Below are positions 18,968 through 32,280 of a stretch of DNA of 64,000 nucleotides, piece by piece. Made by a program: the position numbers and the translations under genes. Below the pieces are notes generated by a model that saw nothing but the letters and a program-made list of their open reading frames with translations, ran no database searches and was not told the DNA's origin. Numbering within the stretch: the stretch's first letter is position 1; the number at the start of each line of letters is the position of its first letter. The stretch lies in NCBI RefSeq assembly GCF_900109575.1, contig NZ_FOAF01000011.1:1-64000 (forward strand), read 5' to 3'. Source of the DNA: Olivibacter domesticus (GTDB lineage: Bacteria; Bacteroidota; Bacteroidia; Sphingobacteriales; Sphingobacteriaceae).

Positions 18968-20068
18968 CTATTTTTTAGGTTTTTGATCGCTTACACATCG
19001 AAATCCAAGGTTATTACTAGCGCTGCTCACTTCTCCCTTCCCCCTACTTCCAGCCTTATATCGTTCGCAATACTGATTATTGCATAAAAATGACCCTCCC
19101 CTTTGCACTCTTTTTACAAGGCCGGGTTCAGCCGGATCATAGCTATCTGCGGGGCCCTTAGGATTATCTTTCACAGATTTTTCATACGCATCAGGACGAT
19201 AAAAATCAGCACACCATTCCCAAACGTTTCCATCCATATCAAACAACCCGTACGGATTTGCAGGAAAGGACTTTACTGGTGCTACGTCAGCATAACCATC
19301 TTCGGTTGTATTTTTCGAGGGAAAATCACCTTGATAAACATTCGCAACCCATTTCCCCTTTGGTTTTAATTCATTACCCCAATAGTATACATTTCCAGTT
19401 TTACCTCCATTCGCTGCATATTCCCATTCGGCCTCCGTAGGCAGCCTCTTTCCTGCCCATTTAGCAAAAGCATCCGCATCTTCATAACAAACCTGCACCA
19501 CTGGTTCATTTTCTTTGCCTTCTGTATTACTGCCTGGTCCTGTTGGATGACGCCAGGACGCACCAGGTACATACTTCCACCATTGTAAGTGATTATTCAA
19601 ATCAACCTGCTCCTTTGGCGGCGTAAAAACGGCTGACCCCGGGACTAATAAATCCCTGGATACACCCGGAAAATCTTCAGGATTCAGCGCCCTTTCGGCC
19701 ACAGTAAGATAACCCGTTGCTTCAACAAATCTCGCAAACTGGGCATTTGTTACCTCATGTTCATCCATCCAAAAATCGTTCACCTTTACTTCGTGAATCG
19801 GTTTGGCATCGGCAAATTCTTCCGATCCCATTTTAAAAGTACCGCCCTTAATTAGTACCATATTCGCATCATCGGCCCCCATGAGAATCGCTTCCTGTGC
19901 ACGCTTAGCTGCAGCAGCTCGAGAAGGGATTCCTTCAGATATGCACATTGCTACAGAGTCTGTCTCTTTTTCCTGCTTTTTCGCTGCATTATTACATCCT
20001 ATGAAAAGGCCAATGCTGGCTATTCCAACCACGCAAGTAGATAAAAAACTATATATGTTAATATTCAT
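18968..20068 (-). CDS. Formylglycine-generating enzyme (sulfatase-modifying factor), lipoprotein
   Basis: The 366-residue protein has a lipoprotein-like signal ending in LFIGC. A complete FGE-sulfatase domain follows: MVLIKGGTFKMGSEEFAD, RLPTEAEWEYAANGG, GLFDMDGNVWEWCADFY, and the active-site segment RGGSFLCNNQYCERY. Both catalytic cysteines (C329 and C334) are present, so it should be a true copper-dependent formylglycine generator and not a paralogue. It converts the sulfatase active-site Cys to formylglycine. The likely client is the arylsulfatase in the same operon, which has the CxPxR motif. I prefer the ATG at 20068 over that at 20083 because the signal peptide begins there. Confidence 0.9.
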   Translation of the reverse strand: MNINIYSFLSTCVVGIASIGLFIGCNNAAKKQEKETDSVAMCISEGIPSRAAAAKRAQEAILMGADDANMVLIKGGTFKMGSEEFADAKPIHEVKVNDFWMDEHEVTNAQFARFVEATGYLTVAERALNPEDFPGVSRDLLVPGSAVFTPPKEQVDLNNHLQWWKYVPGASWRHPTGPGSNTEGKENEPVVQVCYEDADAFAKWAGKRLPTEAEWEYAANGGKTGNVYYWGNELKPKGKWVANVYQGDFPSKNTTEDGYADVAPVKSFPANPYGLFDMDGNVWEWCADFYRPDAYEKSVKDNPKGPADSYDPAEPGLVKRVQRGGSFLCNNQYCERYKAGSRGKGEVSSASNNLGFRCVSDQKPKK

Positions 20069-20084
20069 AAACCACACATCCAAA

Positions 20085-21401
20085 CTAGCTAAATAATAAT
20101 ATTGCTAGCGCTAAGGTAACTAAGATATTAAATAATTGAGCAATCAAAAATACCCAAAATGGGCGTTTACTATTCTCTTTAATTAAATCCTTAAAATTTG
20201 TTTCTAAACCAATACTTGTAAAAGCCAATGCGAACCAAAGACCTTGAACGCTCTTTATATCGCCTTTAACCGCCGCAACCGTATCTGCATGCAGCACGAA
20301 CGAAAACAATAAGGATGCTGCAATAAAACCAAGCACGAATTTCGGAAAACGCTCCCAAATCACCCCTAAACCTGGTTTCGTTGCCGCTTGCTGTCCAGCT
20401 GGGTGATTAGTATAAGTCCAATATACGGAAATTGCTAAAGCCGCCACACCTAGTAAAACATTTTGGGAGAACTTTACAATAGTACTGATTTTCAAAGCCG
20501 TCTCACCTACCAATGACCCCGAGGCAACTACAGCACCGGAGGTATCGATGCTGCCACCTAACCATGCTCCAGTAACTTCTTCAGAAAAACCAAAATAGCT
20601 CGCAATATAAGGCATACCAATCATCATCGGTATAGCCGTAATGAGCACCATAGAGACCACATACGATAATTTTTTTGAGTCTCCTTGTATAGCACCTGAT
20701 GTAGCGATCGCCGCAGAAACGCCACAAATAGAAACGGCACTTGAAAGCATGAGCGCCAGCTCATCATCTATTTTGAACTTTTTACAGAGCCAAAAAGCAA
20801 AATACCATACTGACAGTACTACTACCAGCGATTGAATCAATCCGAGTGATCCAGCTTTCAGAATATCTGAAAAAATCACATTGGTACCTAATAGAACTAA
20901 ACCAATCTTTACCAATAATTCTGCAGACAATGCTTCTTTTAACCATACCGGCAATTTTATAGTATTACCAACAATTAACCCGATACATAAACTAAATATT
21001 ACCGCCTCTAAACCCAGCTCTTCCATTTTTGAATTACCAGCAAGCAATAACGCAAGCGCGGTTAAAAAAAACACGACTGGAAACCCCAGCAGATAAGGTT
21101 TAATTTTCCGTCCCGTTAGCAATCCACCAATAACCAAAATAACGAAGGTAAAAACGAGTTGCTGCAATAAACTCACAAAATTTGCTGTAGAGAAAGCTGC
21201 AAAAAGACTATTCGCATCAGACCATTTATATTTTGGGGCGCCTATATGAAATCCTGCAACGGCCAATCCTATAATAATAAATCCTAGGATTACAACCGTC
21301 CAATCCTCCGTTAAAAAGTTTTTTTTAGGCAAATTTTGCAGCTCGGGAGATAAGTCTTCTTCCTTGGTTGTTGATTCTTTTGAAATAATTTCTTCATTCA
21401 T
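20085..21401 (-). CDS. YeiH-family (UPF0324) putative sulfate exporter
   Basis: The 438-residue protein has a short hydrophilic N-terminus, then about ten hydrophobic segments. YeiH-like motifs are seen: FSLCIGLIVGNTIKLP, ALMLSSAVSICGVSAAIATS and GGSIDTSGAVVASGSLVGE. Relatives are annotated as putative sulfate exporters because some lie with organosulfur degradation genes. Next to an arylsulfatase this fits well: sulfate released in the cell envelope or cytoplasm must be moved. Direction of transport is not shown by sequence. It ends 16 nt before the FGE start. Confidence 0.88.
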   Translation of the reverse strand: MNEEIISKESTTKEEDLSPELQNLPKKNFLTEDWTVVILGFIIIGLAVAGFHIGAPKYKWSDANSLFAAFSTANFVSLLQQLVFTFVILVIGGLLTGRKIKPYLLGFPVVFFLTALALLLAGNSKMEELGLEAVIFSLCIGLIVGNTIKLPVWLKEALSAELLVKIGLVLLGTNVIFSDILKAGSLGLIQSLVVVLSVWYFAFWLCKKFKIDDELALMLSSAVSICGVSAAIATSGAIQGDSKKLSYVVSMVLITAIPMMIGMPYIASYFGFSEEVTGAWLGGSIDTSGAVVASGSLVGETALKISTIVKFSQNVLLGVAALAISVYWTYTNHPAGQQAATKPGLGVIWERFPKFVLGFIAASLLFSFVLHADTVAAVKGDIKSVQGLWFALAFTSIGLETNFKDLIKENSKRPFWVFLIAQLFNILVTLALAILLFS

Positions 21402-21475: not shown

Positions 21476-22432
21476 TTAACCTGTTAAACCTGGGGTAATA
21501 GCTTTTGTTTCTAAGATAATTTCTTTATTCTCTTGCTTGTGAATAACTGGTCCCTCCTGTTTAACGATGTCTTCTCGCACCATGGGGCCATTTGCTGCCA
21601 ATTCACTCCCTGCCACTTTTGATTTAAATATAGGCCAAAGAAGCTGTGCATACCATTCATCGCCTTCATAGTGCGAGATACCGTAAGATTTAGGATATTG
21701 CCGTGTTATTAAGGCTGTTCCAAAAATAATATCCCAAAGGAAAAACATATTTCCGAAATTTCCCTTATAATGTCCCACACCATCGTTTATTGTATCTGCA
21801 TGATGTGCATGATGCGTAGCTGGTGTAGAAATCGTTCTTTCAAGTATCCAAGCAATAGGGTGAAGCCATTTCTTTTCATAAAAAGGCTTGTCCCATTTAA
21901 TACTGGAATGCGCCATTTTGGTTATTAACGATTTAATTCCTTTTGCAAACAAAGCTGGGTAGCCCAAGCCAAGATACACCAATATAACGGTTAAATAGGT
22001 TTGAGAAAAGAAAATAGTATAAATGATATTCTGCCTTGAAGCCATGGCCATTCCCATATACGAAGCTGAATGATGCGTTCTGTGAAACCGCCATAACCAG
22101 GGGATTTCATGATGAAGTCGGTGATACCAATACTGCGTCAGGTCATCATAAATACAAATAATAATAAAACCCCAGAAAAACGGCACCCATTCGAACGCAT
22201 CTTTCGAGTGTGGCAAAATAAATGGAACAAATTTCAACCCAAAATAGGCTACCAAGGGCCGTGTAACTAAACGGGGTAAGGCATAGCAAGCAAGGTCGAG
22301 CAACTTTTCATTACGATTCCATTCCTTACCGTACAAGCCAAAAGAAAATTCAAAAACGCCTATAATTAACGTGAGCACCGCCAATCCCCAAGTATTAAGG
22401 TTGGTGAAGATTGCTTCTATAAATTGTATCAT
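21476..22432 (-). CDS. Sterol desaturase / fatty acid hydroxylase family membrane protein
   Basis: The 318-residue protein carries the di-iron histidine motifs of the fatty acid hydroxylase superfamily: YHRLHHEIPWLWRFHRTHHS in the middle and THHAHHADTINDGVGHY later. They lie between membrane segments (LAVLTLIIGVFEFSFGLY, FFWGFIIICIYDDLT). Family members hydroxylate or desaturate sterols, sphingoid bases, fatty acids or alkylglycerols. In this operon a lipid or sterol-like sulfate ester would be an attractive substrate, but that is inference only. It is 74 nt before the YeiH gene and 47 nt after the small membrane ORF. Confidence 0.88.
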   Translation of the reverse strand: MIQFIEAIFTNLNTWGLAVLTLIIGVFEFSFGLYGKEWNRNEKLLDLACYALPRLVTRPLVAYFGLKFVPFILPHSKDAFEWVPFFWGFIIICIYDDLTQYWYHRLHHEIPWLWRFHRTHHSASYMGMAMASRQNIIYTIFFSQTYLTVILVYLGLGYPALFAKGIKSLITKMAHSSIKWDKPFYEKKWLHPIAWILERTISTPATHHAHHADTINDGVGHYKGNFGNMFFLWDIIFGTALITRQYPKSYGISHYEGDEWYAQLLWPIFKSKVAGSELAANGPMVREDIVKQEGPVIHKQENKEIILETKAITPGLTG

Positions 22433-22746: not shown

Positions 22747-23451
22747 TTAAATTTTATGTTTGTTCAACTGGGCAATAATTTCTTCCTTAGAGCTCAACCC
22801 GTGTTTTTTCCAAACAACTTCTTTTCCTTTATATAAAATCAGTGTGGGAAGTGCATCCACAGCAAGTTCTTTTGTTAACTGCTTATTATCATAAGCCTCG
22901 ATATTAACTAATTTAAATTTATCCTTATTTTCATCCGCCACATTTTCTACAATCGGTTTCAGTTTTTTGCATCCGCCACAGTACCGGGAACTCACATCCA
23001 CCAATACCAATTTTTCTGAGGTGATTTGATCATGAAAGGCTGCCAACGATAAACCTTCACCAACGGTAGACTCAACTGGTTTTCCCTCCCCTATCCATTT
23101 ACTAAGCCCTCCGGGAAACTCATATACCTCTTTAAAATCCTGTGCGCGCAAAGTTGCCGCCAGCTTAGCACTCCGCCCATTACCTATGGAATAAATAAAT
23201 ACCGGCTCGCTTTTCTTTAGTTGCGCCAATACTGATTTAAACTGCTTTTCGTCAGATACATTCTGTGCGCCCTTCACATGATTCTGAATAAATTCTTCTT
23301 CAGAACGAGCATCTAAAATCTGAGCATATGCGCCTGCATTCAATAATTTCTTTTCAAATGTCTCGAAAGGTAACAGTTTAACGCCCCTTTCCTGTGCTAT
23401 TACGATTCCAACAGTGAATAGTAGTAGCGTCAATGAGATGAATTGTTTCAT
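22747..23451 (-). CDS. Exported rhodanese-like/thioredoxin fusion with a cysteine-less rhodanese loop
   Basis: The 234-residue protein has a signal peptide (LTLLLFTVGIVIAQ). A rhodanese-like domain follows (ILDARSEEEFIQNHVKGAQN; active loop VFIYSIGNGRS), then a thioredoxin-like domain with CGGC (C158, C161; VDVSSRYCGGCKKLKP) and VDALPTLILYKG. The rhodanese catalytic Cys position is Ser88. The paralogue at 39203 keeps it (VFVYCLGGGRS). Sulfur transfer by this domain is therefore unlikely and it may serve for binding. It lies 33 nt after the arylsulfatase and may act as its thiol-redox partner, for instance to keep the Cys reduced before formylglycine formation; that is inference. Confidence 0.85.
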   Translation of the reverse strand: MKQFISLTLLLFTVGIVIAQERGVKLLPFETFEKKLLNAGAYAQILDARSEEEFIQNHVKGAQNVSDEKQFKSVLAQLKKSEPVFIYSIGNGRSAKLAATLRAQDFKEVYEFPGGLSKWIGEGKPVESTVGEGLSLAAFHDQITSEKLVLVDVSSRYCGGCKKLKPIVENVADENKDKFKLVNIEAYDNKQLTKELAVDALPTLILYKGKEVVWKKHGLSSKEEIIAQLNKHKI

Positions 23452-23484: not shown

Positions 23485-25317
23485 TTATTGTTTTGGTAAT
23501 GTATTTCGCCTATCCGCGACATCGTCCCAGGTGATATAGGGATAGATATTATTCTTTTTTGCCTCTTCTTCAAACAATGATTTAAGTTCCTCGAGTTTTT
23601 CGGGGTTCTTTTTAGCCAAATCGTGCTGTTCATTAAAATCTTCATTCAGATTGAATAATTGCCACTCGATATGATTTGGATCTGGAAAACTAACATTTCG
23701 TAACCTACCTCCTTTATTATCATCAATTTTAAAAGCTAGGCCTGCTTTCCAGCCATCCTTATAGATAGATCGAGAACCAAAGATGTAGTAGTACTGTGTT
23801 TTATGTCTAGAAGGCGCTTGCTTATCTGAAAACGAATACACTAATGATGTTCCTTGAATGGTATCCTGCTTAATACCTCGGATATATGCAGGTGCCTCGA
23901 TGTGTAGGAACTCTAGTGTAGTGGGCAACAAATCATTTACGTAACCATATTGATTACGTATTCCTCCTTTTTCTGTAATGCCTTTGGGATAAAAAACAAT
24001 CAACGGGTTACGTGTCCCACCTTCAGAATGCGCATCCTGCTTCCAGTATTTAAAAGGGGTATTAGCGGCTTGCGCCCACCCTAATGGATAATTCCCATTC
24101 GTTGCCTGTGGAGTACCTATAAGTTCTAGATTGTCAAGATTTGCTTTAACAGCCTCTTTCTCTGATAATACTTGTTGTAAAGCTGTTGCAGGTGATCGTG
24201 TAACCGTTCCGTAGAGTGTCCCCTCTTTACTCGCACCATTGTCTCCAACCACCAATAAGATCAAGGTGTTATCAAGCTGATTGATTTCTTTAAGGTGATT
24301 AACTAATCGTCCCACCTCGTAATCGGTGTAGGTTAAGTATCCTGCATACACTTCAAAAAATCTCGTATAAACTTTTTTCTCGTCGTCGGAGAGTTTTTCC
24401 CAAGCTTTGATATTAGGATTTCTAGCCGGTAATGTGGCATTAGCAGGTATGATTCCAAGTTCCTTCTGACGTTTAAATACCTGCTCACGATAGTTATCCC
24501 ATCCTTTATCAAATTTTCCCTTATATAGATCTCTCCATTTCCCTTCTACTTGGTGGGGTGAATGTGTTGCACCAGGAGCATAATATAGGAAGAAAGGTTT
24601 ATTTGGAGCAGCATTCTTTTGCCGATCGATAAAGCTGATAGCTTTGTCCGTAATCTGTTCGCTCAGATGCCTGCCATCTGGCACTACATGGGCATTATCT
24701 TCTACCAGATCCGGCTTATATTGATCGGTTGCCGAACCTAAAAAACCAAAGAAATGATCAAAACCTTTTCCCGAAGGCCAGCGATCAAATGGTCCAGCAT
24801 CCGTTGCATCTTGATCGGGTGTTAAACCATATTTTCCTACAGCAAAAGTACTGTAGCCATTTTCTCTTAGTATTTCGGCGATCGTTCCCTTGTCAGAAGG
24901 GATCCTTCCATCCCAGCCAGGAAAGCCAAAGGCCGACCAGCGATGAGAGAACCCGCCTTCATGTACGCGGTGGTGATTGCGCCCGGTTAATAAAGCTGCT
25001 CGTGTTGGTGCACAGATCGCTGCTGTATGGAAATTCGTATAACGCAAGCCATTATTTGCTAAGCTGTCAAAGGTTGGTGTATTGATTAACCCTCCAAATG
25101 TGCTGCTCGCACCAAATCCCACATCATCCAATAAAATCCAAACAACGTTAGGAGCTCCTGAAGGAGCTGTTATGGGGTCTACCCAAGCTTCTTTAGAGCT
25201 AGCAAAATCTTTTCCAACCACACCTTTAAATGACTCCTGCTGCTGCGTAATATTTTGTGCATGCGCAAAGGAAACGGCAAACGTGAAACCGAAAATTGTT
25301 GTAATTAATTTGCTCAT
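23485..25317 (-). CDS. Arylsulfatase (type I sulfatase), exported
   Basis: The 610-residue protein has a signal peptide (LITTIFGFTFAVSFAHAQ). It carries the metal-binding Asp pair in WILLDDVGFGAS and the sulfatase motif CAPTRAALLTGR with the modifiable Cys102 (CxPxR). GGxNxPxH-like and VGDNGASKEG regions, and the family-typical FAVGKYGL, are also present. It hydrolyses sulfate esters in the periplasm once Cys102 is converted to formylglycine, for which the operon has its own enzyme. Length and pattern resemble the AtsA-type arylsulfatases. A 131-nt gap separates it from the SusD gene. Substrate unknown. Confidence 0.94.
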   Translation of the reverse strand: MSKLITTIFGFTFAVSFAHAQNITQQQESFKGVVGKDFASSKEAWVDPITAPSGAPNVVWILLDDVGFGASSTFGGLINTPTFDSLANNGLRYTNFHTAAICAPTRAALLTGRNHHRVHEGGFSHRWSAFGFPGWDGRIPSDKGTIAEILRENGYSTFAVGKYGLTPDQDATDAGPFDRWPSGKGFDHFFGFLGSATDQYKPDLVEDNAHVVPDGRHLSEQITDKAISFIDRQKNAAPNKPFFLYYAPGATHSPHQVEGKWRDLYKGKFDKGWDNYREQVFKRQKELGIIPANATLPARNPNIKAWEKLSDDEKKVYTRFFEVYAGYLTYTDYEVGRLVNHLKEINQLDNTLILLVVGDNGASKEGTLYGTVTRSPATALQQVLSEKEAVKANLDNLELIGTPQATNGNYPLGWAQAANTPFKYWKQDAHSEGGTRNPLIVFYPKGITEKGGIRNQYGYVNDLLPTTLEFLHIEAPAYIRGIKQDTIQGTSLVYSFSDKQAPSRHKTQYYYIFGSRSIYKDGWKAGLAFKIDDNKGGRLRNVSFPDPNHIEWQLFNLNEDFNEQHDLAKKNPEKLEELKSLFEEEAKKNNIYPYITWDDVADRRNTLPKQ

Positions 25318-25448: not shown

Positions 25449-27008
25449 TTAAAATCCCGGATTCTGGGTTAATAAGTGATTGTTATCTATTTCAGATTGC
25501 GGAATAGGGTACAAAGCATGTTTTTCGGCAGCATTGTTTTTACCAACTTTATGAAGGCTCTTCACAAAAATCCCATTACCAGAAGCGTCCTTTTCCCTTA
25601 TTAGATCAAACCAGCGTTGGTATTCATATACCAGTTCAAGTCGCCTATCTAAGTAAACAGCATCGCGAAACTGATCTTTGCTTAAACCCGCGGTTAGGTC
25701 TGGCAAGCCTGCTCTGCGCCTTACCCGATTAATTGATTTATAAGCTTTTGCGCTAGGACCATTTACTTCGTTTTCAGCTTCAGCATGAATAAGCAACAAA
25801 TCCGCATAACGTATGATGGGCACATTTGCAGCCGACTCACTGGTTACCGCTGTTGAATTAGGATCCCACCATTTGTTAAAGAAAGGTGTTGAGTCTCCCG
25901 GTACTGCCGGATTGTTTAAGGGTAAATTATAACTTCTACCATTAGACGGACTAGTAAAACTTGTCACGAACGTTACATACTTACGTTTATCGTTAGGTTT
26001 AAATAATTTGAAAATACTAAAGAAGTTATCGTTCCCTTCTTTATAGTATCTTGCCATATGTGCGTAATTCCCTCTTAGACCCGGTATACTACTTAGTATT
26101 GCACGTGGTGCCTCGTTATTTCCCTGATTTAGGGAATTTGATTTAAATTGCGCCGAAAAAATATGCTCTTTCCCATTCTTAAACGCCGGCAGAAAAACCT
26201 CCGCATAGTTCTCAATCAAATCATACCCATAACTCCCAGAGCCGCCATCCTGCGATGAAAGCACTTCCTCGGCTATTTTGACAGCATCTTCATAATGTTC
26301 TTGTATCTTAAGCGGCAATGAGGCTTCCGTAAGGTATACCTTCGCTAGCAGCGCCTTTGCGGCTCCTGCCGTTGCGCGACCTACATCGGGTGAACTATAA
26401 CTAGCAGGTAAAACCGCTGCGGCTTCCTTTAAATCTTTTTCTATCTGGCCATACACTTCGGTAGCGGCGCTCCGAGGAACTGCATAGTCATTTGCATCTA
26501 TATATTTCTGATATGCTACAATAAGCGGAACATCTCCATACAAACGAACCAAATTGAAGTAATAAAGCGCTCTTAAAAATTTAGCTTCCGCAAGCAATCT
26601 GTTCTTAAGGTTTTCATCAAAATCAATTTGAGGTATTTTCTCCAGCGCAACATTCGCACGCTTTATGGCAGCATAGTGTTGCTGCCAAATTTCATAAATC
26701 CTCAGATTTGTTGAAGAATGTGCCAAAACCGACAGTGAACGCACATCTGGATTCGTGGCCCCTGGTCCTGGATCCTCATCATCACCCGCCATATTCATTC
26801 CTGTATTAAACAAGGTATTATAAGGTGTTTGAACGGAAGTACCTCCAGAATTAAGGAAGAAATAAACGGCGTTAATGGCATTTAATGCATCATCTTGCGT
26901 TTTGTAAAACTGTTCTTCTGAAATGATAGCAGCAGGCTCCTCTTCAAGAAATTTCTTACAAGAGGTAACAGTAAGGCTTATGAGGATGATATAGATAATT
27001 CTTTTCAT
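25449..27008 (-). CDS. SusD/RagB-family outer-membrane lipoprotein
   Basis: The 519-residue protein begins with a lipoprotein signal (IIYIILISLTVTSCKKFLEE). It has the standard SusD pattern: EEQFYKTQDDALNAINAVY near the start, AEAKFLRALYYFNLVRLYGDVPL, IIRYADLLLIHAEAENEVNG, and a C-terminal IPQSEIDNNHLLTQNPGF. It is the ligand-binding partner of the SusC protein encoded 19 nt upstream. With the sulfatase downstream it suggests uptake of a sulfated compound. Confidence 0.95.
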   Translation of the reverse strand: MKRIIYIILISLTVTSCKKFLEEEPAAIISEEQFYKTQDDALNAINAVYFFLNSGGTSVQTPYNTLFNTGMNMAGDDEDPGPGATNPDVRSLSVLAHSSTNLRIYEIWQQHYAAIKRANVALEKIPQIDFDENLKNRLLAEAKFLRALYYFNLVRLYGDVPLIVAYQKYIDANDYAVPRSAATEVYGQIEKDLKEAAAVLPASYSSPDVGRATAGAAKALLAKVYLTEASLPLKIQEHYEDAVKIAEEVLSSQDGGSGSYGYDLIENYAEVFLPAFKNGKEHIFSAQFKSNSLNQGNNEAPRAILSSIPGLRGNYAHMARYYKEGNDNFFSIFKLFKPNDKRKYVTFVTSFTSPSNGRSYNLPLNNPAVPGDSTPFFNKWWDPNSTAVTSESAANVPIIRYADLLLIHAEAENEVNGPSAKAYKSINRVRRRAGLPDLTAGLSKDQFRDAVYLDRRLELVYEYQRWFDLIREKDASGNGIFVKSLHKVGKNNAAEKHALYPIPQSEIDNNHLLTQNPGF

Positions 27009-27026: not shown

Positions 27027-30000
27027 TTATAAGGTTAACGAGACACCCAGTTGAACGGACTTATTATTCGGATAAATACCTTGATCAATACCTCTGTTAA
27101 TGAGCGACTGCTCCGACTGGCTCACCTCGGGGTCAAAGCCTGTATAGTCTGTCCATGTCCACGCATTTTGTGCCGAAACATAAATTCTCAGGGAATCCAA
27201 ACCCGACTTTCCAAAAACACGCTTTGGTATCGTATATCCGAACGAAACATTCTTTAGTCGAACATAAGAAGCGCTTTCTATAAAGCGATCTGAGATGGTA
27301 ATGGCTGGATCCTGAAAAGCTGCTTTTACATCAGTACTTGTGTTGTTAGGTGTCCAGCGATTCAATACTTCACGGGATGCATTCACATAACCAGTTCCTA
27401 ACTCCAAGTTGGCTCTATTTGCATTATATAATTTACCCCCGAACGATCCTTGGAAGAACACTGATAAGTCAAAACCTTTATAACTGAAATTATTGGTGAG
27501 TCCGGCAGTAAAACCTGGTTGATTAGCGATTACTATTCGATCACCAGCCTGTGTAATTTGGCCATCGCCGTTGAGATCCTTGTATTTTTGTCCACCTGGA
27601 CTTTTATTTTGCTGCGGCGTAAGTGGGTTGTCTCCCTCCTGAATAATACCATCTGTTTGATAAACAATAAAAGAACCTAAAGGGTACCCAACTTTTGCAA
27701 TAGATGGTTGTGATATCACGGGAATAATTTGATCCACACCTTCCCCTAAGTCGGTAATTTTATTGGTGTTTTTTGAGAATATGGCAATAGTTTTCCAAGT
27801 AAAATTTCCCGTTATGTTATTTGAATTTACATATACTTCAATCCCTTGATTGGATACAGCCCCAATATTTTGATAGATGGCTGCAGTTTGTCCGCCTCCA
27901 AACTCGGCTAAACCAGAAGTTCCTGGAACCGTCCTATTCAGCAGTAAATCGGTGGTTTTCTTGTAATAATAATCAGCAACCACGGTTATTCTATTATTAA
28001 ATAGACCTACATCTACACCGGCATCAAATTGAAATGTCTTTTCCCATCCGAGGTTGGGATTGGGAACAGTTACGGGAGCGAACCCGTGTACGGTGGTATT
28101 AGAAAAGTTATACCTGAAATAGTCAAGTTGTGAAAGCGATTGGTAGGAAGGTATATTCTGATTACCTGTGGTACCAGCACTCAAGCGTAATTTAAGCTGA
28201 CTTATATTCTTAATATCCTTAAAAAAATCCTCATTACTCACATTCCAACCAAGAGCTGCTGAAGGGAAATACCCCCACTTATTTCCCGCCCCAAATTTTG
28301 AAGAACCATCTGAACGAAAAGTAAGAGTCAATAGGTAACGATCGTCATAGACATAATTAATTCTTCCCAGAAATGAAGCGAGCGACCAATCGTTTGCAAT
28401 TGAGCTGGGTGTTCGGTTAGTGATACCCGTTCCCAAATTATTAAAAGAAAAAACATCTGTCGCAAATCCAGCAGCCTCTGCCACAGCCCCCTCACTATTT
28501 GATTGTTGTGCAGTAAATCCAACAATAGCATTAATTCGGTTTTTGTCATTAATCGTTTTGTCATAACTTAAGGTATTCTCGTTAAGCCAATTGGATGTAA
28601 ACAGCGAACCAACTTGCGCCAAACCTCCCAAATCCAGTCCTTCAGCCGTAGTTTTAGGCAGATAACGATTCTGCTTATTATCTACAACATCTACCCCCAC
28701 TAATACTTTTGCTTTAAGTCCGTCAATAATTTCATATTCGCCTGTTATATTTCCCAAAAGTCGATTTGTTTTACTTTCATTCAGCTGATTATATAAAGAG
28801 TTGATGGGGTTTTGTAAGTTCGATTCGAAGGGGCTATAGATGACAAATGAACCATCATCCTGATAAATGGGAAGTGAAGGGGGGGTAAGCAATAAGTTAG
28901 CAACAACTGATGTTGGCGCTATAGCCGCTTTCGACCTGCTAGCCGATAAATTACTTGTTAACTTTAATCGTTCATTATAATCATGTACGACATTCACTCT
29001 ACCTGATATACGTTGAAACCCCGTATTTTGTAGAATCCCGTCCTGATCAAAATAATTTCCAGATATGGCTAATCTTGTTTTCTCCCCTCCCGTCAGAATG
29101 GAAAGGTTATGATTCTGTATGGCCGCTTGTCGAAAGGCAGCATCTTGCCAGTCGGTGCCTACGCCGCTTGTATCCAACGTATAGCCTGAAACCGAAGGTA
29201 AAGAAGTAGATTTCCCTGAGTTTGCTGCAGCATCTTTGCGTAATTGCCACCACTCGCCGGCATTTAATAATGGGATGGTCTTAACAACTTCCTGCACTCC
29301 ATAATAACCATCGTAATTGATGGAAGACTTATTCTTTGTTCCATTTTTTGTAGTTATAATCACCACTCCATTTGCCCCACGAGATCCATATATTGCCGTT
29401 GCTGATGCATCTTTAAGCACATCAATTGATTCAATATCGGATGTATTTATCGTCGAAAGGGGGTTGATTTTAGAACCGGTATTCACCCCAGCATCATTAA
29501 CAGAATAATCGTTACTGATGGGGAATCCATCAATTACATACAAGGGATCACTACCAGCGGTTATCGAATTGTTTCCGCGAATTTGCACACTGACGCCACC
29601 TCCCGGTTGTCCGGAAGTTTGCGTAACTACGGCTCCTGGTACTGACCCCTGGAGAAGACGTTCTGGAGACGCTACAGGCTGACTCTTTACTTCTGCAGGT
29701 ACCGAAGCTATTGCTCCTGTTAAATCGCCCCTCTTCTGAGTACCATATCCTACCACGACTACGTCTTCCAACTGGTTAAAATCAGGCGCTAGGCCAATTT
29801 CTATCGGACTTCCGGTGGCGACAACCTTATTTACTTTATATCCAATATAATTGACAATTAACGTATAGGGAAATTTCTGCCCAGTTATAAACTTAAATCG
29901 TCCATCTCCATCGGTACTTGCTTTGTGAGTAGTACCCTCGATGGACACTGTGGCCCCGGGCAAGGGTTCCTTCGTATTAGCATCAATTACTTTTCCATCT

Positions 30001-30161
30001 AATGTTGAATTGATAAGAGGTTTAGTTGTTTGGGCAGCTATCTCTCCACTTAAAAATATCGCAAACCCAATAAAGGTTGCTTTTTTAATGAAGGAACAAT
30101 TTTTAACAGCCCTATTTAAGTGAAAAAAATTAAAATATCTTTTAATATGAAAATCGATCAT
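27027..30161 (-). CDS. SusC/RagA-family TonB-linked outer-membrane transporter
   Basis: The 1044-residue protein has a signal region (ATFIGFAIFLSGEIAAQ) and a carboxypeptidase-regulatory-like domain (LDGKVIDANTKEPLPGATV). A TonB-box-like VVVGYGTQKRGDLTGA is followed by the plug signature (SIDVLKDASATAIYGSRGAN) and a barrel ending KSVQLGVSLTL. It is the first structural gene of the sulfatase operon, after a leader of over 200 nt. The first ATG (30161) precedes a long positively charged stretch; an internal start is possible but no better one is evident. Confidence 0.95.
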   Translation of the reverse strand: MIDFHIKRYFNFFHLNRAVKNCSFIKKATFIGFAIFLSGEIAAQTTKPLINSTLDGKVIDANTKEPLPGATVSIEGTTHKASTDGDGRFKFITGQKFPYTLIVNYIGYKVNKVVATGSPIEIGLAPDFNQLEDVVVVGYGTQKRGDLTGAIASVPAEVKSQPVASPERLLQGSVPGAVVTQTSGQPGGGVSVQIRGNNSITAGSDPLYVIDGFPISNDYSVNDAGVNTGSKINPLSTINTSDIESIDVLKDASATAIYGSRGANGVVIITTKNGTKNKSSINYDGYYGVQEVVKTIPLLNAGEWWQLRKDAAANSGKSTSLPSVSGYTLDTSGVGTDWQDAAFRQAAIQNHNLSILTGGEKTRLAISGNYFDQDGILQNTGFQRISGRVNVVHDYNERLKLTSNLSASRSKAAIAPTSVVANLLLTPPSLPIYQDDGSFVIYSPFESNLQNPINSLYNQLNESKTNRLLGNITGEYEIIDGLKAKVLVGVDVVDNKQNRYLPKTTAEGLDLGGLAQVGSLFTSNWLNENTLSYDKTINDKNRINAIVGFTAQQSNSEGAVAEAAGFATDVFSFNNLGTGITNRTPSSIANDWSLASFLGRINYVYDDRYLLTLTFRSDGSSKFGAGNKWGYFPSAALGWNVSNEDFFKDIKNISQLKLRLSAGTTGNQNIPSYQSLSQLDYFRYNFSNTTVHGFAPVTVPNPNLGWEKTFQFDAGVDVGLFNNRITVVADYYYKKTTDLLLNRTVPGTSGLAEFGGGQTAAIYQNIGAVSNQGIEVYVNSNNITGNFTWKTIAIFSKNTNKITDLGEGVDQIIPVISQPSIAKVGYPLGSFIVYQTDGIIQEGDNPLTPQQNKSPGGQKYKDLNGDGQITQAGDRIVIANQPGFTAGLTNNFSYKGFDLSVFFQGSFGGKLYNANRANLELGTGYVNASREVLNRWTPNNTSTDVKAAFQDPAITISDRFIESASYVRLKNVSFGYTIPKRVFGKSGLDSLRIYVSAQNAWTWTDYTGFDPEVSQSEQSLINRGIDQGIYPNNKSVQLGVSLTL

Positions 30162-30195
30162 TTTTTAGCATATAGAATGTAGGACATACGCTATC

Positions 30196-30218
30196 AAGTT
30201 CATTTATGAAATGAACTT
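30196..30218 (-). promoter_or_regulatory. Perfect 10-bp hairpin in the sulfatase-operon leader
   Basis: AAGTTCATTT and AAATGAACTT (in minus-strand sense) pair perfectly around a three-base loop, 35 nt before the susC ATG. No T-run follows, so it is not a standard terminator. It could be a pause, an RNA-processing or a translation-control element in the leader, or an operator. Confidence 0.5.
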
Positions 30219-30277
30219 AGCAAGCAACGTAAAATTTCCCGAATGGAAGATTGATTATTTTGTAGATGTTATGTACC

Positions 30278-30293
30278 GTTGTTTTTCAACAAC
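30278..30293 (-). promoter_or_regulatory. Hairpin GTTGTT-GAAA-AACAAC over the cysteine codons and stop of the leader peptide
   Basis: On the minus strand a six-pair stem closes a GAAA tetraloop. Its 5' arm consists of the last two of three TGT codons, and the loop includes the TGA. A ribosome stalled on these codons would prevent the stem, as in amino-acid attenuators. Confidence 0.5.
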
Positions 30294-30375
30294 AACAGGA
30301 AGGAAAGAAAAGCTTGTGAACAGATGGGGCTTTGGCCCGCCTAAAAACTGAAATGGCAACTTTAGCTTGTTTCAT
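30286..30375 (-). CDS. Leader peptide (29 aa) ending in three cysteines
   Basis: An ATG at 30375 opens a frame that begins MKQAKVAISVFRRAK, continues APSVHKLFF and ends PSCCC followed by TGA. It is basic and has no membrane helix. It lies 57 nt downstream of a promoter box (TATATTTG) and 124 nt before the susC ATG of the sulfatase operon. Three cysteine codons before the stop, in a hairpin, are the layout of a transcription-attenuation leader peptide. Cysteine is the amino acid one would expect to control sulfate-ester use. There is no strong Shine-Dalgarno sequence. The frame is short and could occur by chance, so translation needs proof. Confidence 0.55.
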   Translation of the reverse strand: MKQAKVAISVFRRAKAPSVHKLFFPSCCC

Positions 30376-30431
30376 CGCATTATAAATTATTACACATTAA
30401 ATCTATCTTTTTAGTAGATATTTAAACCAAA

Positions 30432-30439
30432 CAAATATA
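30432..30439 (-). promoter_or_regulatory. -7 promoter box of the sulfatase operon
   Basis: On the minus strand this reads TATATTTG, a match to TAnnTTTG. It implies a leader of about 260 nt before susC that contains the cysteine peptide and the hairpins. No clear TTG -33 element is seen. Confidence 0.5.
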
Positions 30440-30541
30440 CATAGCATAAAGTAGCTTTGTTAGGACGAAAATATTCCTAATTAGCCCATAAATAATACGC
30501 ATAAAAGGTATTATTTGTACCTACTCTATGAAAATTGGGAT

Positions 30542-31990
30542 TTATTCTTGAAATGAGGGCACGCTCCCCTTGAAGATTTCTTGTAATGCTTTTTGAGCGG
30601 CATGATAGCCACACATGCCATGCACACCTCCACCGGGGGGCGTAGAGGAAGAACAAATATAAATCCCTTTGGCCGATGTGCTGTAAGGTGACCACTTAAG
30701 TGCCGGTCTTGTAAACAATTGCCGAATATCCATGGCACCTCCATTAATATCCCCCCCTACGTAATTCGGATTATACCTTTCATAATCCGTAGCATTGATT
30801 GTTTGTTTCATTAAAATACGATCACGAAAACCTGGAGCAAAACGTTCTATCTGCTGCTCGATAGCATTGCTCATGTCTATCGTAGATCCATTAGGAACGT
30901 GACAATAGCCCCAAACCACCTGTCTGTTATCCGGCGTCCTGCTCGTATCAAAAAGACTTTGCTGTGCCAGTAATACAAATGGCTTTTCTGGGTGCTTTCC
31001 TTTCCAAACAGCTTCCTCACCTGCAGCAATTTCGTTAAAGGTATTACCTATATGTACCGTTCCAGCCTTCTTGCATATTTCCGATGCAAAAGGTATGGGC
31101 CCGTCTAATATCCAATCCATTTTAAAAACCCCCATACCGTAACGATAAGATTTCAATTGCTTCTTATAATTTGACGAAAACTTTTGTCCCGCTATCTTCA
31201 ATAGCTGCTTTGGTCCAATATCAAATATAATCGCCTTATATCTCGGAAGCTTTTCCATCGAATCTACATAATAATTAACAAGCACTTCTCCGCCTAAGGA
31301 TTTAAAATAAGAGTTTAGTGCATTGGCAATACTTTGCGAGCCCCCTATAGGTATAGGCCACCCCCCCTCGTGCCCGGCTATAGAGAGCGCAAGTGCAATC
31401 GCAGAAGTCGTTGCATGAGTAAGGGGAAGCATGGAATGTGCCGCCATGCCAGCCCACAAAGCCTTCATTTCTTCACTCTTAAAGCTCCGTGCTGTGCTAG
31501 CTGCCGATTTTAATGCCTTCATGCCAAATTTCAACATTTTCAATGGAGATGAGGGTATGTGAAGGGGGGCTAAAACGTCTTCTACAATTTCGGGCCACAA
31601 TTTTACTAAGGGGTCAAAAAGATGCTCGTAAGTTTTTGCATCCTTACCAAACTGACGAGCGGTCTCCAACAATGATCCGTATAACCCTACTGCCCCTCCA
31701 TTGTCCAACGGATGGGCGGCTAAAACAGGTGGTTTAACATAGGTTAAACCATGCTCTTTTAGTGGTAATGATTTAAAAAAGGGAGATTGTATCGCCATAG
31801 GATGAATCGCAGAACAGATATCATATGTATAGCCAGGCAGCATCAACTCTCCCGACCTAAGTCCGCCTCCTATTGTATCACTTCCCTCAAGGAGCAAAAC
31901 ATCCAAGCCTGCCATTTTCATCGTTATCGCTGCAGCCAAACCGTTTGGTCCAGAACCTACTACGACGACATCATATTTATCTTTAAGCAT
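30542..31990 (-). CDS. FAD-dependent oxidoreductase of the phytoene desaturase/PYROXD2 type
   Basis: The 482-residue protein starts with a dinucleotide-binding motif (YDVVVVGSGPNGLAAAITM, then LLEGSDTIGGGLRS). It ends with the second FAD-contact region of CrtI-like proteins (GIYICSSSTPPGGGVHGMCG). No carotenoid genes are near, so it is more likely of the PYROXD2-like NAD(P)/FAD group than a true phytoene desaturase. Substrate unknown. It is a single gene; its end lies about 100 nt from the promoter of the sulfatase operon on the same strand. Confidence 0.85.
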   Translation of the reverse strand: MLKDKYDVVVVGSGPNGLAAAITMKMAGLDVLLLEGSDTIGGGLRSGELMLPGYTYDICSAIHPMAIQSPFFKSLPLKEHGLTYVKPPVLAAHPLDNGGAVGLYGSLLETARQFGKDAKTYEHLFDPLVKLWPEIVEDVLAPLHIPSSPLKMLKFGMKALKSAASTARSFKSEEMKALWAGMAAHSMLPLTHATTSAIALALSIAGHEGGWPIPIGGSQSIANALNSYFKSLGGEVLVNYYVDSMEKLPRYKAIIFDIGPKQLLKIAGQKFSSNYKKQLKSYRYGMGVFKMDWILDGPIPFASEICKKAGTVHIGNTFNEIAAGEEAVWKGKHPEKPFVLLAQQSLFDTSRTPDNRQVVWGYCHVPNGSTIDMSNAIEQQIERFAPGFRDRILMKQTINATDYERYNPNYVGGDINGGAMDIRQLFTRPALKWSPYSTSAKGIYICSSSTPPGGGVHGMCGYHAAQKALQEIFKGSVPSFQE

Positions 31991-32158
31991 CTTCCGTATT
32001 TCCCAATGTTAAGTATTTTCTAAAGATACCTGCTTTTAATAAGTCTCCAAAGGATTTGACAGTTTTAATAGTTCTAAGTACTGCAAGGCATTGATACGTA
32101 AATCTAGGTGTATCAAATTACATTTGATAATCACCAAATTATTACCGACATTTGCAAT

Positions 32159-32256
32159 GCTTATTGAGAAAGACGGAGGGATTAGACCCTGCGAAGTCTT
32201 GGCAACCTGTGCTTACAAGGTGCTACATTCTACCCGATAAACTGGGACAGATAAGC
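32159..32256 (+). ncRNA. SAM-I (S-box) riboswitch
   Basis: P1 pairs GCTTAT (32159-32164) with ATAAGC (32251-32256). Between them lie the S-box landmarks: GAGAAAGACGGAGGGA after P1, CCCTGCGAAGTCTTGGCAACC, and AAGGTGCTACATTC. It binds S-adenosylmethionine and controls the methionine synthase downstream. It lies inside the 5' extension of the longest metH frame, which supports the later metH start. Confidence 0.92.
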
Positions 32257-32280
32257 GAAAGTCACTTTCTGGGCTTTTTT
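32254..32280 (+). terminator. Riboswitch expression-platform terminator
   Basis: AGC-GAAAG (32254-32261) pairs with CTTTC and, past a TGG bulge, GCT (32273-32275), followed by six T. Its first three bases belong to the P1 3' strand. The stem is short, so strength is uncertain. It suggests control by transcription termination when SAM is high. Confidence 0.65.

Follow-up and report, generated by a model that had tools for sequence, protein, structure and literature searches.

In the window, by which we mean the whole 64,000-nucleotide stretch of Olivibacter domesticus DNA analysed here, a minus-strand gene cluster begins with susC, encoding a TonB-linked outer membrane transporter (27027..30161; TIGR04056 over its cut-off). 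It is followed by genes for a susD-like lipoprotein (25449..27008; NF033071 below cut-off, assigned by its position after susC), a sulfatase (23485..25317; PF00884), a rhodanese-thioredoxin protein (22747..23451; PF00581 and PF00085), a fatty acid hydroxylase/sterol desaturase-like protein (21476..22432; PF04116), a YeiH-like putative sulfate exporter (20085..21401; PF03601 over cut-off, TIGR00698 below cut-off), and a formylglycine-generating-enzyme-like (FGE-like) protein associated with sulfatase maturation (18968..20083; PF03781). Strand and order suggest that susC through the FGE-like gene constitute one operon, which would supply cysteine. The neighborhood is rich in sulfur genes: on the opposite strand, upstream of the leader described below, lie metH (TIGR02082 over cut-off), which is preceded by a SAM riboswitch (32158-32257, plus strand), and metF (TIGR00676 just below cut-off), and genes for two sulfur-transport proteins and another rhodanese-thioredoxin protein follow farther upstream. 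This riboswitch was the sole match in an Rfam search of the window, and inspection by eye found no Cys ORF after it.

The sequence-only reading had proposed that a short ORF ending in three TGT codons and TGA lies between a -7 box and susC, and the sequence bears this out. The leader ORF comprises 29 codons (MKQAKVAISVFRRAKAPSVHKLFFPSCCC followed by a stop; 30375..30286, minus strand) and ends with the codons TGT TGT TGT TGA at 30297..30286. The element TATATTTG at 30439..30432 (minus strand), which we take to be a promoter -7 box of the Bacteroidota TAnnTTTG type, is located 56 nt from the leader ATG, suggesting that the ORF is preceded by a 5' leader; ATATTTG or TATATTTG was also seen by eye ahead of several relatives' leaders. 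Between the leader stop and the susC start (30161) lies an untranslated gap of 124 nt (30162..30285), in which C exceeds G (0.19 and 0.13, skew 0.20) and which represents a candidate Rho loading stretch. The GTTGTT-GAAA-AACAAC hairpin at 30293..30278 (minus strand) has a predicted stability of -4.2 kcal/mol for its core and -7.6 kcal/mol for a longer stretch, and a strong hairpin, AAGTTCATTT-CATA-AATGAACTT, was recognized by eye within the gap. A scan of 29900-30550 identified no intrinsic terminator on the minus strand, in agreement with the earlier remark that no U-run terminator is evident. When the window's own 430 nt were dinucleotide-shuffled 2000 times, a Cys-run short ORF arose by chance in 5 cases.

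Conservation of the leader before susC

Orthologs of susC were collected at E <= 1e-280 from a sample of 201 family genomes, with three candidates scored per genome, yielding 26 genomes and 27 loci, the window included. According to a strict rule (an ORF of 6-70 codons within 700 nt whose last seven residues include CC and three or more Cys), a Cys-run short ORF was detected in 16 of the 27 loci, again counting the window, while dinucleotide shuffles of the same loci gave a mean of 0.23 and a maximum of 2. The sequence-only reading had made its case dependent on the persistence of the Cys run and stop in relatives, and these 16 loci provide it. A relaxed rule raised the count to 18 of 27, and the nine loci without any Cys leader by that rule count against the leader reading. 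Among the matches listed, four of the eight named relatives (at least 45% identity, at least 400 nt upstream) carried a leader, as did 1 of 69 more distant susC loci by the strict rule; three of the 80 loci concerned, having less than 400 nt upstream, were left out of the count. Comparing the orthologs and the eight named relatives with these 69 controls, among the matches listed, gave a Fisher p of 4e-11, a value to be read against the fact that the controls are more distant susC loci from many taxa, unmatched by taxon, which counts against it. None of the other 19 amino acids gave a comparable result in the same test, the lowest p being 0.04 (Ile).

The Cys run and the stop are kept between genera, while the remaining peptide diverges. 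Within the last seven codons of the 16 susC leaders, cysteine is encoded by TGT 44 times and by TGC 14 times. In three close leader pairs, the counts by codon position (5, 5, 8; 8, 7, 9; and 9, 8, 11) revealed no strong third-position bias, and the peptide outside the Cys run therefore appears hardly constrained. A Cys run that is kept amid hardly constrained peptide is how a codon sensor should be expected to look at the sequence level. An identical leader was found in L029 (genus g14) and L131 (Pedobacter sp. AK013). When the 29 residues served as a similarity query against 59 other genomes, 10 gave matches at E <= 1, all of which proved to be noise, so that peptide-level conservation does not extend that far; likewise, no NCBIfam family was matched by the leader peptide at E <= 1.

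A search of 247 class genomes added five loci from three genomes, all five with a Cys-ended ORF once two Cys among the final seven residues were accepted as sufficient. In the Flavobacterium-type loci, a micro-ORF of the form MCxCC-stop was seen by eye approximately 340-400 nt before susC in five of the five read, and a second micro-ORF, ending in CCK, CCSK, or CCCK, was located approximately 130-165 nt before susC in four of them. As a separate observation by eye, L071, L072, L073, L083, L442, and L444, all Flavobacterium-type susC loci, hold two Cys micro-ORFs in one leader, MCxCC-stop followed by a second ending in CCK, CCSK, CCFK, or CCCK. After the second micro-ORF of this type comes a hairpin, GCCATTTCTG-CGGCAA-CAGAAATGGC, without a U tract (by eye).

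Scanning 28 orthologous loci with the window's proteins (20 of the 26 other orthologous loci and the eight named relatives) located a sulfatase within 3.5 kb of the susC end in 26; the exceptions were G005, in which the sulfatase lies 6 kb on, and Mucilaginibacter achroorhodeus, for which none was found in the stretch examined. The six scanned loci without a leader showed the same sulfatase content as the leader-bearing loci, and the leader is thus likely to be one of several controls.

A different element was observed in the same upstream regions. A hairpin with the loop TCRATTGGCGTTG is present in 18 of the 27 orthologous susC loci (L020-L031 in part, and L034-L039), as well as in L079 and L131. 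Its loop is invariant in 15 aligned copies, and its stem changes on both sides (AAACAGG/CCTGTTT, AAGCAGG/CCTGCTT, and ACAAG/CTTGT, by eye). It stands ahead of susC at a distance of 35-41 nt in 17 of the 18 orthologous loci and of 207 nt in the remaining one, L020, and a second copy lies near the -7 box in L034, L036, L037, and L039. Altogether, 25 of the 27 orthologous loci hold either this hairpin or a Cys leader. The hairpin was not found at the window's own locus and had no Rfam match at E <= 2 in the relatives searched; across 11 relatives, Rfam at that threshold returned a SAM riboswitch and three implausible matches to eukaryote RNAs.

Cysteine-ended ORFs at other sulfur operons

Following metX through 61 family genomes gave matches in 37, for 20 of which the upstream stretch was examined. 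A SAM riboswitch (RF00162) was found upstream in 19 of these 20 stretches, and a Cys-ended ORF came after the riboswitch in all 19, in 18 cases at a distance of 70-142 nt before metY. An in-frame ATG occurs 8-12 nt past the aptamer end in each of the 19, the own genome included; L247 and L259 hold an additional in-frame ATG farther upstream. Since the metYX riboswitch ends so close to the leader start, SAM may gate translation of the leader. In the own-genome copy (L246:878-1131; G000:C10), the leader ends in SCCMCMCC-stop and metY matches TIGR01326 over cut-off. In G002 the upstream stretch missed the place of the leader, and a Cys ORF lies approximately 100 nt before metX (L240). At the metX locus of G004 (L248, L190), metY seems by eye to be a C-terminal remnant, and the riboswitch and Cys leader remain before metX.

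Across 80 genomes sampled from the phylum, 110 SAM riboswitch matches were obtained, 70 of which were read with the requirement relaxed to two Cys among the final nine residues. Cys ORFs followed the riboswitch before metY-like genes in G019, G322, G050, G341, and G345, in the last of which the ORF begins inside the aptamer, and before cysH in G304 (NF002537 and TIGR02055 over cut-offs). G341 holds an additional, doubtful Cys ORF after a riboswitch (L368). All riboswitch-linked Cys ORFs of this sample belong to the window's class, and the 36 riboswitch loci from other classes showed no Cys ORF after the riboswitch.

A third setting was found ahead of cysD, which was located in 46 family genomes and examined upstream in 20. 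The first gene of the operon belongs to the nitrite/sulfite reductase family (PF01077 and PF03460 in L296 and L310, the two tested, with all NCBIfam matches below cut-off), and its place ahead of cysD leads us to read it as a sulfite reductase. In 6 of 16 loci (L301, L303, L304, L309, L310, and L311) this sulfite-reductase-type gene is preceded by a short ORF that has CC, CSCC, or CMC close to its end; L302 shares their layout with a single Cys. Each of the six leaders is followed by a hairpin and U tract of -9 to -14 kcal/mol, that is, by an intrinsic terminator. In some of them, sequence ahead of the terminator is able to base-pair with its arm; in L310, by eye, GGGAGGCTGT would do so with ACAGCCTCC. 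As predicted from these elements, the arrangement is that of a classical attenuator. In the window's own genus, no clear Cys leader was seen at this operon (L296-L299), which counts against the cysteine-leader reading.

The same type of leader was also recovered independently of susC. The peptide pattern MRMCC-stop had 32 matches in 27 of 251 family genomes, and the reversed-pattern control had none. Loci were available for 30 matches, one of which (L209) is the same place as L034; 17 of the 30 were set aside as lying inside large ORFs, most of them SusD genes read out of frame. Of the 13 matches outside large ORFs, 11 precede susC-like genes, one lies in the metX operon of G004, with a SAM riboswitch just ahead of the leader, and one lies elsewhere. 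Three of the 11 susC-like targets were tested and carry the SusC signature TIGR04057 (L192, L198, and L199); the rest were assigned by eye.

These occurrences lead us to suggest, tentatively and at slightly worse than even odds, that a Cys-leader regulon exists in this class of Bacteroidota. It would span SusCD-sulfatase scavenging, metYX methionine synthesis, and sulfate assimilation, with SAM gating the translation of the metYX leader such that two sulfur signals act in series, and with some members using intrinsic termination and others Rho.

Interpretation and mechanism

Because the leader recurs before other sulfur operons and is kept in relatives, it is most likely a cysteine-shortage switch. 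The locus displays an upstream short ORF carrying consecutive codons for a single amino acid, a run and stop conserved beyond chance, and downstream genes for the supply of that amino acid (sulfatase, FGE-like protein, rhodanese-thioredoxin, and YeiH-like transporter), the last point being backed by the relatives' metYX operon and their sulfite-reductase-type operon with cysD. We assign a probability of about 0.78 to a ribosome-mediated, cysteine-responsive leader-peptide attenuator for sulfur scavenging, a figure that concerns the cysteine leader as such; the ORF would then be translated and would respond to cysteine. The sulfur-scavenging logic put forward from the window alone thus holds, with a leader that is conserved and shared among sulfatase, metYX, and sulfite-reductase-type operons.

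The attenuator proposal was right in kind; the hairpin assigned to it fared less well. The GTTGTT-GAAA-AACAAC structure is present, and the predicted fold shows it in three of four loci of the own genus, but a swap test did not support its role. The Cys codons paired no better with the 16 or 40 nt after them than did those of leaders swapped in from other loci: real and swapped values were 6.11 vs 6.67 pairs (16 nt) and 7.71 vs 7.85 (40 nt) for susC, and 4.98 vs 4.71 and 7.93 vs 7.12, respectively, for metY. A classical terminator with antiterminator was likewise not found at the window locus.

Base composition points in another direction. Rho loads on RNA that is rich in C and poor in G, and such a C-over-G skew was observed after the leaders, with a mean of 0.29 in 18 metY gaps (p 3e-8) and 0.18 in 8 orthologous susC gaps (p 0.0009), the window at 0.20 being in line; the corresponding values were -0.03 for 67 family 5' regions and 0.03 for 10 orthologs that had no leader by the strict rule. 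A further comparison gave 0.25 for 18 susC gaps vs 0.05 for distant susC 5' regions, and the six terminator-bearing gaps had a skew of -0.18. The gap of G022 (L019), with a skew of 0.0, counts against Rho, and the skew, being compositional only, could serve something else. Since the gap after the window's leader has more C than G and lacks a terminator, Rho-dependent attenuation is favored; given a cysteine leader, we would place Rho as the effector at the window a little short of an even chance.

According to the proposed mechanism, RNA starting from the -7 box would carry the leader ORF. With ample Cys-tRNA, the ribosome would pass the three Cys codons, end at TGA, and leave, exposing the 124-nt gap on which Rho could load, and transcription would stop ahead of susC or within it. 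Under cysteine shortage, the ribosome would stall at the Cys codons that border the gap and keep Rho off; the susCD-sulfatase operon would then be transcribed, and sulfate esters would be imported and cleaved.

Alternatively, the leader may be a Cys sensor in which ribosome stalling makes the susC start site accessible or permits re-initiation, with no termination being blocked. Terminator-like sites were found in none of 18 metY gaps and in 5 of 18 susC gaps (-4.2 to -9.7 kcal/mol), vs 5 of 63 control susC 5' regions, and the minimum free energy fold of several metY loci has the Cys codons base-paired to the metY start, both of which suit translational attenuation. Across loci, however, pairing with the start region was no stronger than with swapped leaders (4.78 vs 5.07 pairs for metY, 2.79 vs 2.32 for susC), and we regard this alternative as improbable. 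Given a cysteine leader, translational control in general is rather unlikely as the mechanism, and RNA processing or some other mechanism is unlikely as well.

The nascent Cys-run peptide might instead bind metal or thiols and thereby sense copper or oxidized thiols, as in the precedent of the Cys-rich upstream ORFs of some Bordetella TonB transporters. That susC is itself a TonB-linked transporter, and that multi-Cys ends such as CCRCWCCCRM occur, would be in keeping with this; yet the spacing of the cysteines is not fixed, ranging from MRMC and MCMCC to CCCCC, and recurrence with metYX, with the SAM riboswitch, and with the sulfite-reductase-type operon and its terminators fits Cys-tRNA sensing, which leaves metal or thiol sensing very unlikely. 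As to a chance ORF ahead of an operon under promoter control alone, short ORFs are common and a third of the orthologs (9 of 27) lack the leader, but neither the shuffled loci nor the 1 of 69 controls among the matches listed comes near the 16 observed; we consider this explanation scarcely credible.

Relation to known leaders and further own-genome matches

In classical trp- and his-type attenuators, the regulatory codons specify the amino acid whose supply is controlled. The cysteine leader resembles them in this respect and differs in that the window locus lacks a terminator, terminators being confined to the sulfite-reductase-type relatives. Polycysteine short ORFs of mycobacteria, reportedly described by Canestrari in 2020, are said to be leaderless, with the ORF starting at the transcription start; the window's ORF would differ from these in having a 5' leader, if the -7 box is right.

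Leader peptides with Cys runs have been described before the cys operons of Mycobacterium and Propionibacterium and before cbs of Bifidobacterium; they are described as lacking a conserved terminator hairpin, and Rho is suggested for them (PMC1262725). Mycobacterial polycysteine ORFs are also cited in PMC13236596. In layout, the leaders studied here resemble the actinobacterial ones as described in PMC1262725: a short ORF has its Cys run close to the stop, sulfur genes follow, and no terminator hairpin is conserved. They differ in phylum and in their association with SusCD-sulfatase and metYX operons, the latter behind a SAM riboswitch. The uORFC-8-2 motif before cysS of Rhodobacterales combines tandem Cys codons in an upstream ORF with an intrinsic terminator (PMC8632094). 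Tandem Cys codons are common to both systems, and the terminators parallel those at our sulfite-reductase-type leaders; unlike that motif, with its cysS target and terminator stem, the window's locus has susC downstream and neither its stems nor a terminator. Within Bacteroidota, leader-peptide attenuation is mentioned for Flavobacterium psychrophilum and Bacteroides thetaiotaomicron (PMC9723704, PMC7366714). These reports likewise involve short ORFs in 5' regions; their available portions concern amino-acid biosynthesis operons or leader-like short ORFs generally and name no cysteine leader. The earlier statement that no Cys leader has been described in Bacteroidota agrees with the open-licence literature, in which we found none; the letters of the GTTGTT hairpin had no match in the literature search.

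SusCD-sulfatase operons are usually read as serving carbon scavenging from sulfated glycans. A cysteine-shortage switch, if true, would mark this operon group as a sulfur-supply system, thereby changing how such loci are annotated and tested, and would place a cysteine-sensing sulfur regulon in a class for which the open-licence literature yielded none. The SAM riboswitch followed by a Cys leader would be a natural arrangement that could sense two sulfur metabolites one after the other.

Pattern searches of the own genome were also performed. The pattern TGYTGYTGYTRR, whose TRR position also admits TGG, which is not a stop, had 81 matches vs 19 in the control. From these, 65 stretches were read, chosen to hold stop-ended matches, and most matches lay inside large ORFs, where an ORF of 90 aa in whichever frame was enough to count as "inside", and a few may therefore be misjudged. 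L052 and L167 lie outside large ORFs but lack an ATG; besides the window, one match (L174) lies outside large ORFs with an ATG ahead. A second pattern, TGYNNNTGYTGYTRR, had 71 matches vs 28 in the control. Loci were available for 30 of the 71, all of which failed the free-leader filter; among the other 41 the metY match was the one examined. The ORF at L174 (G000:C12, 707749, minus strand) encodes the Cys-run peptide MILSNNTYSIPNQLTRMCLVDGKMCCC followed by a stop and lies 67 nt before a PhyH-type dioxygenase gene, which is a candidate for sulfur regulation.
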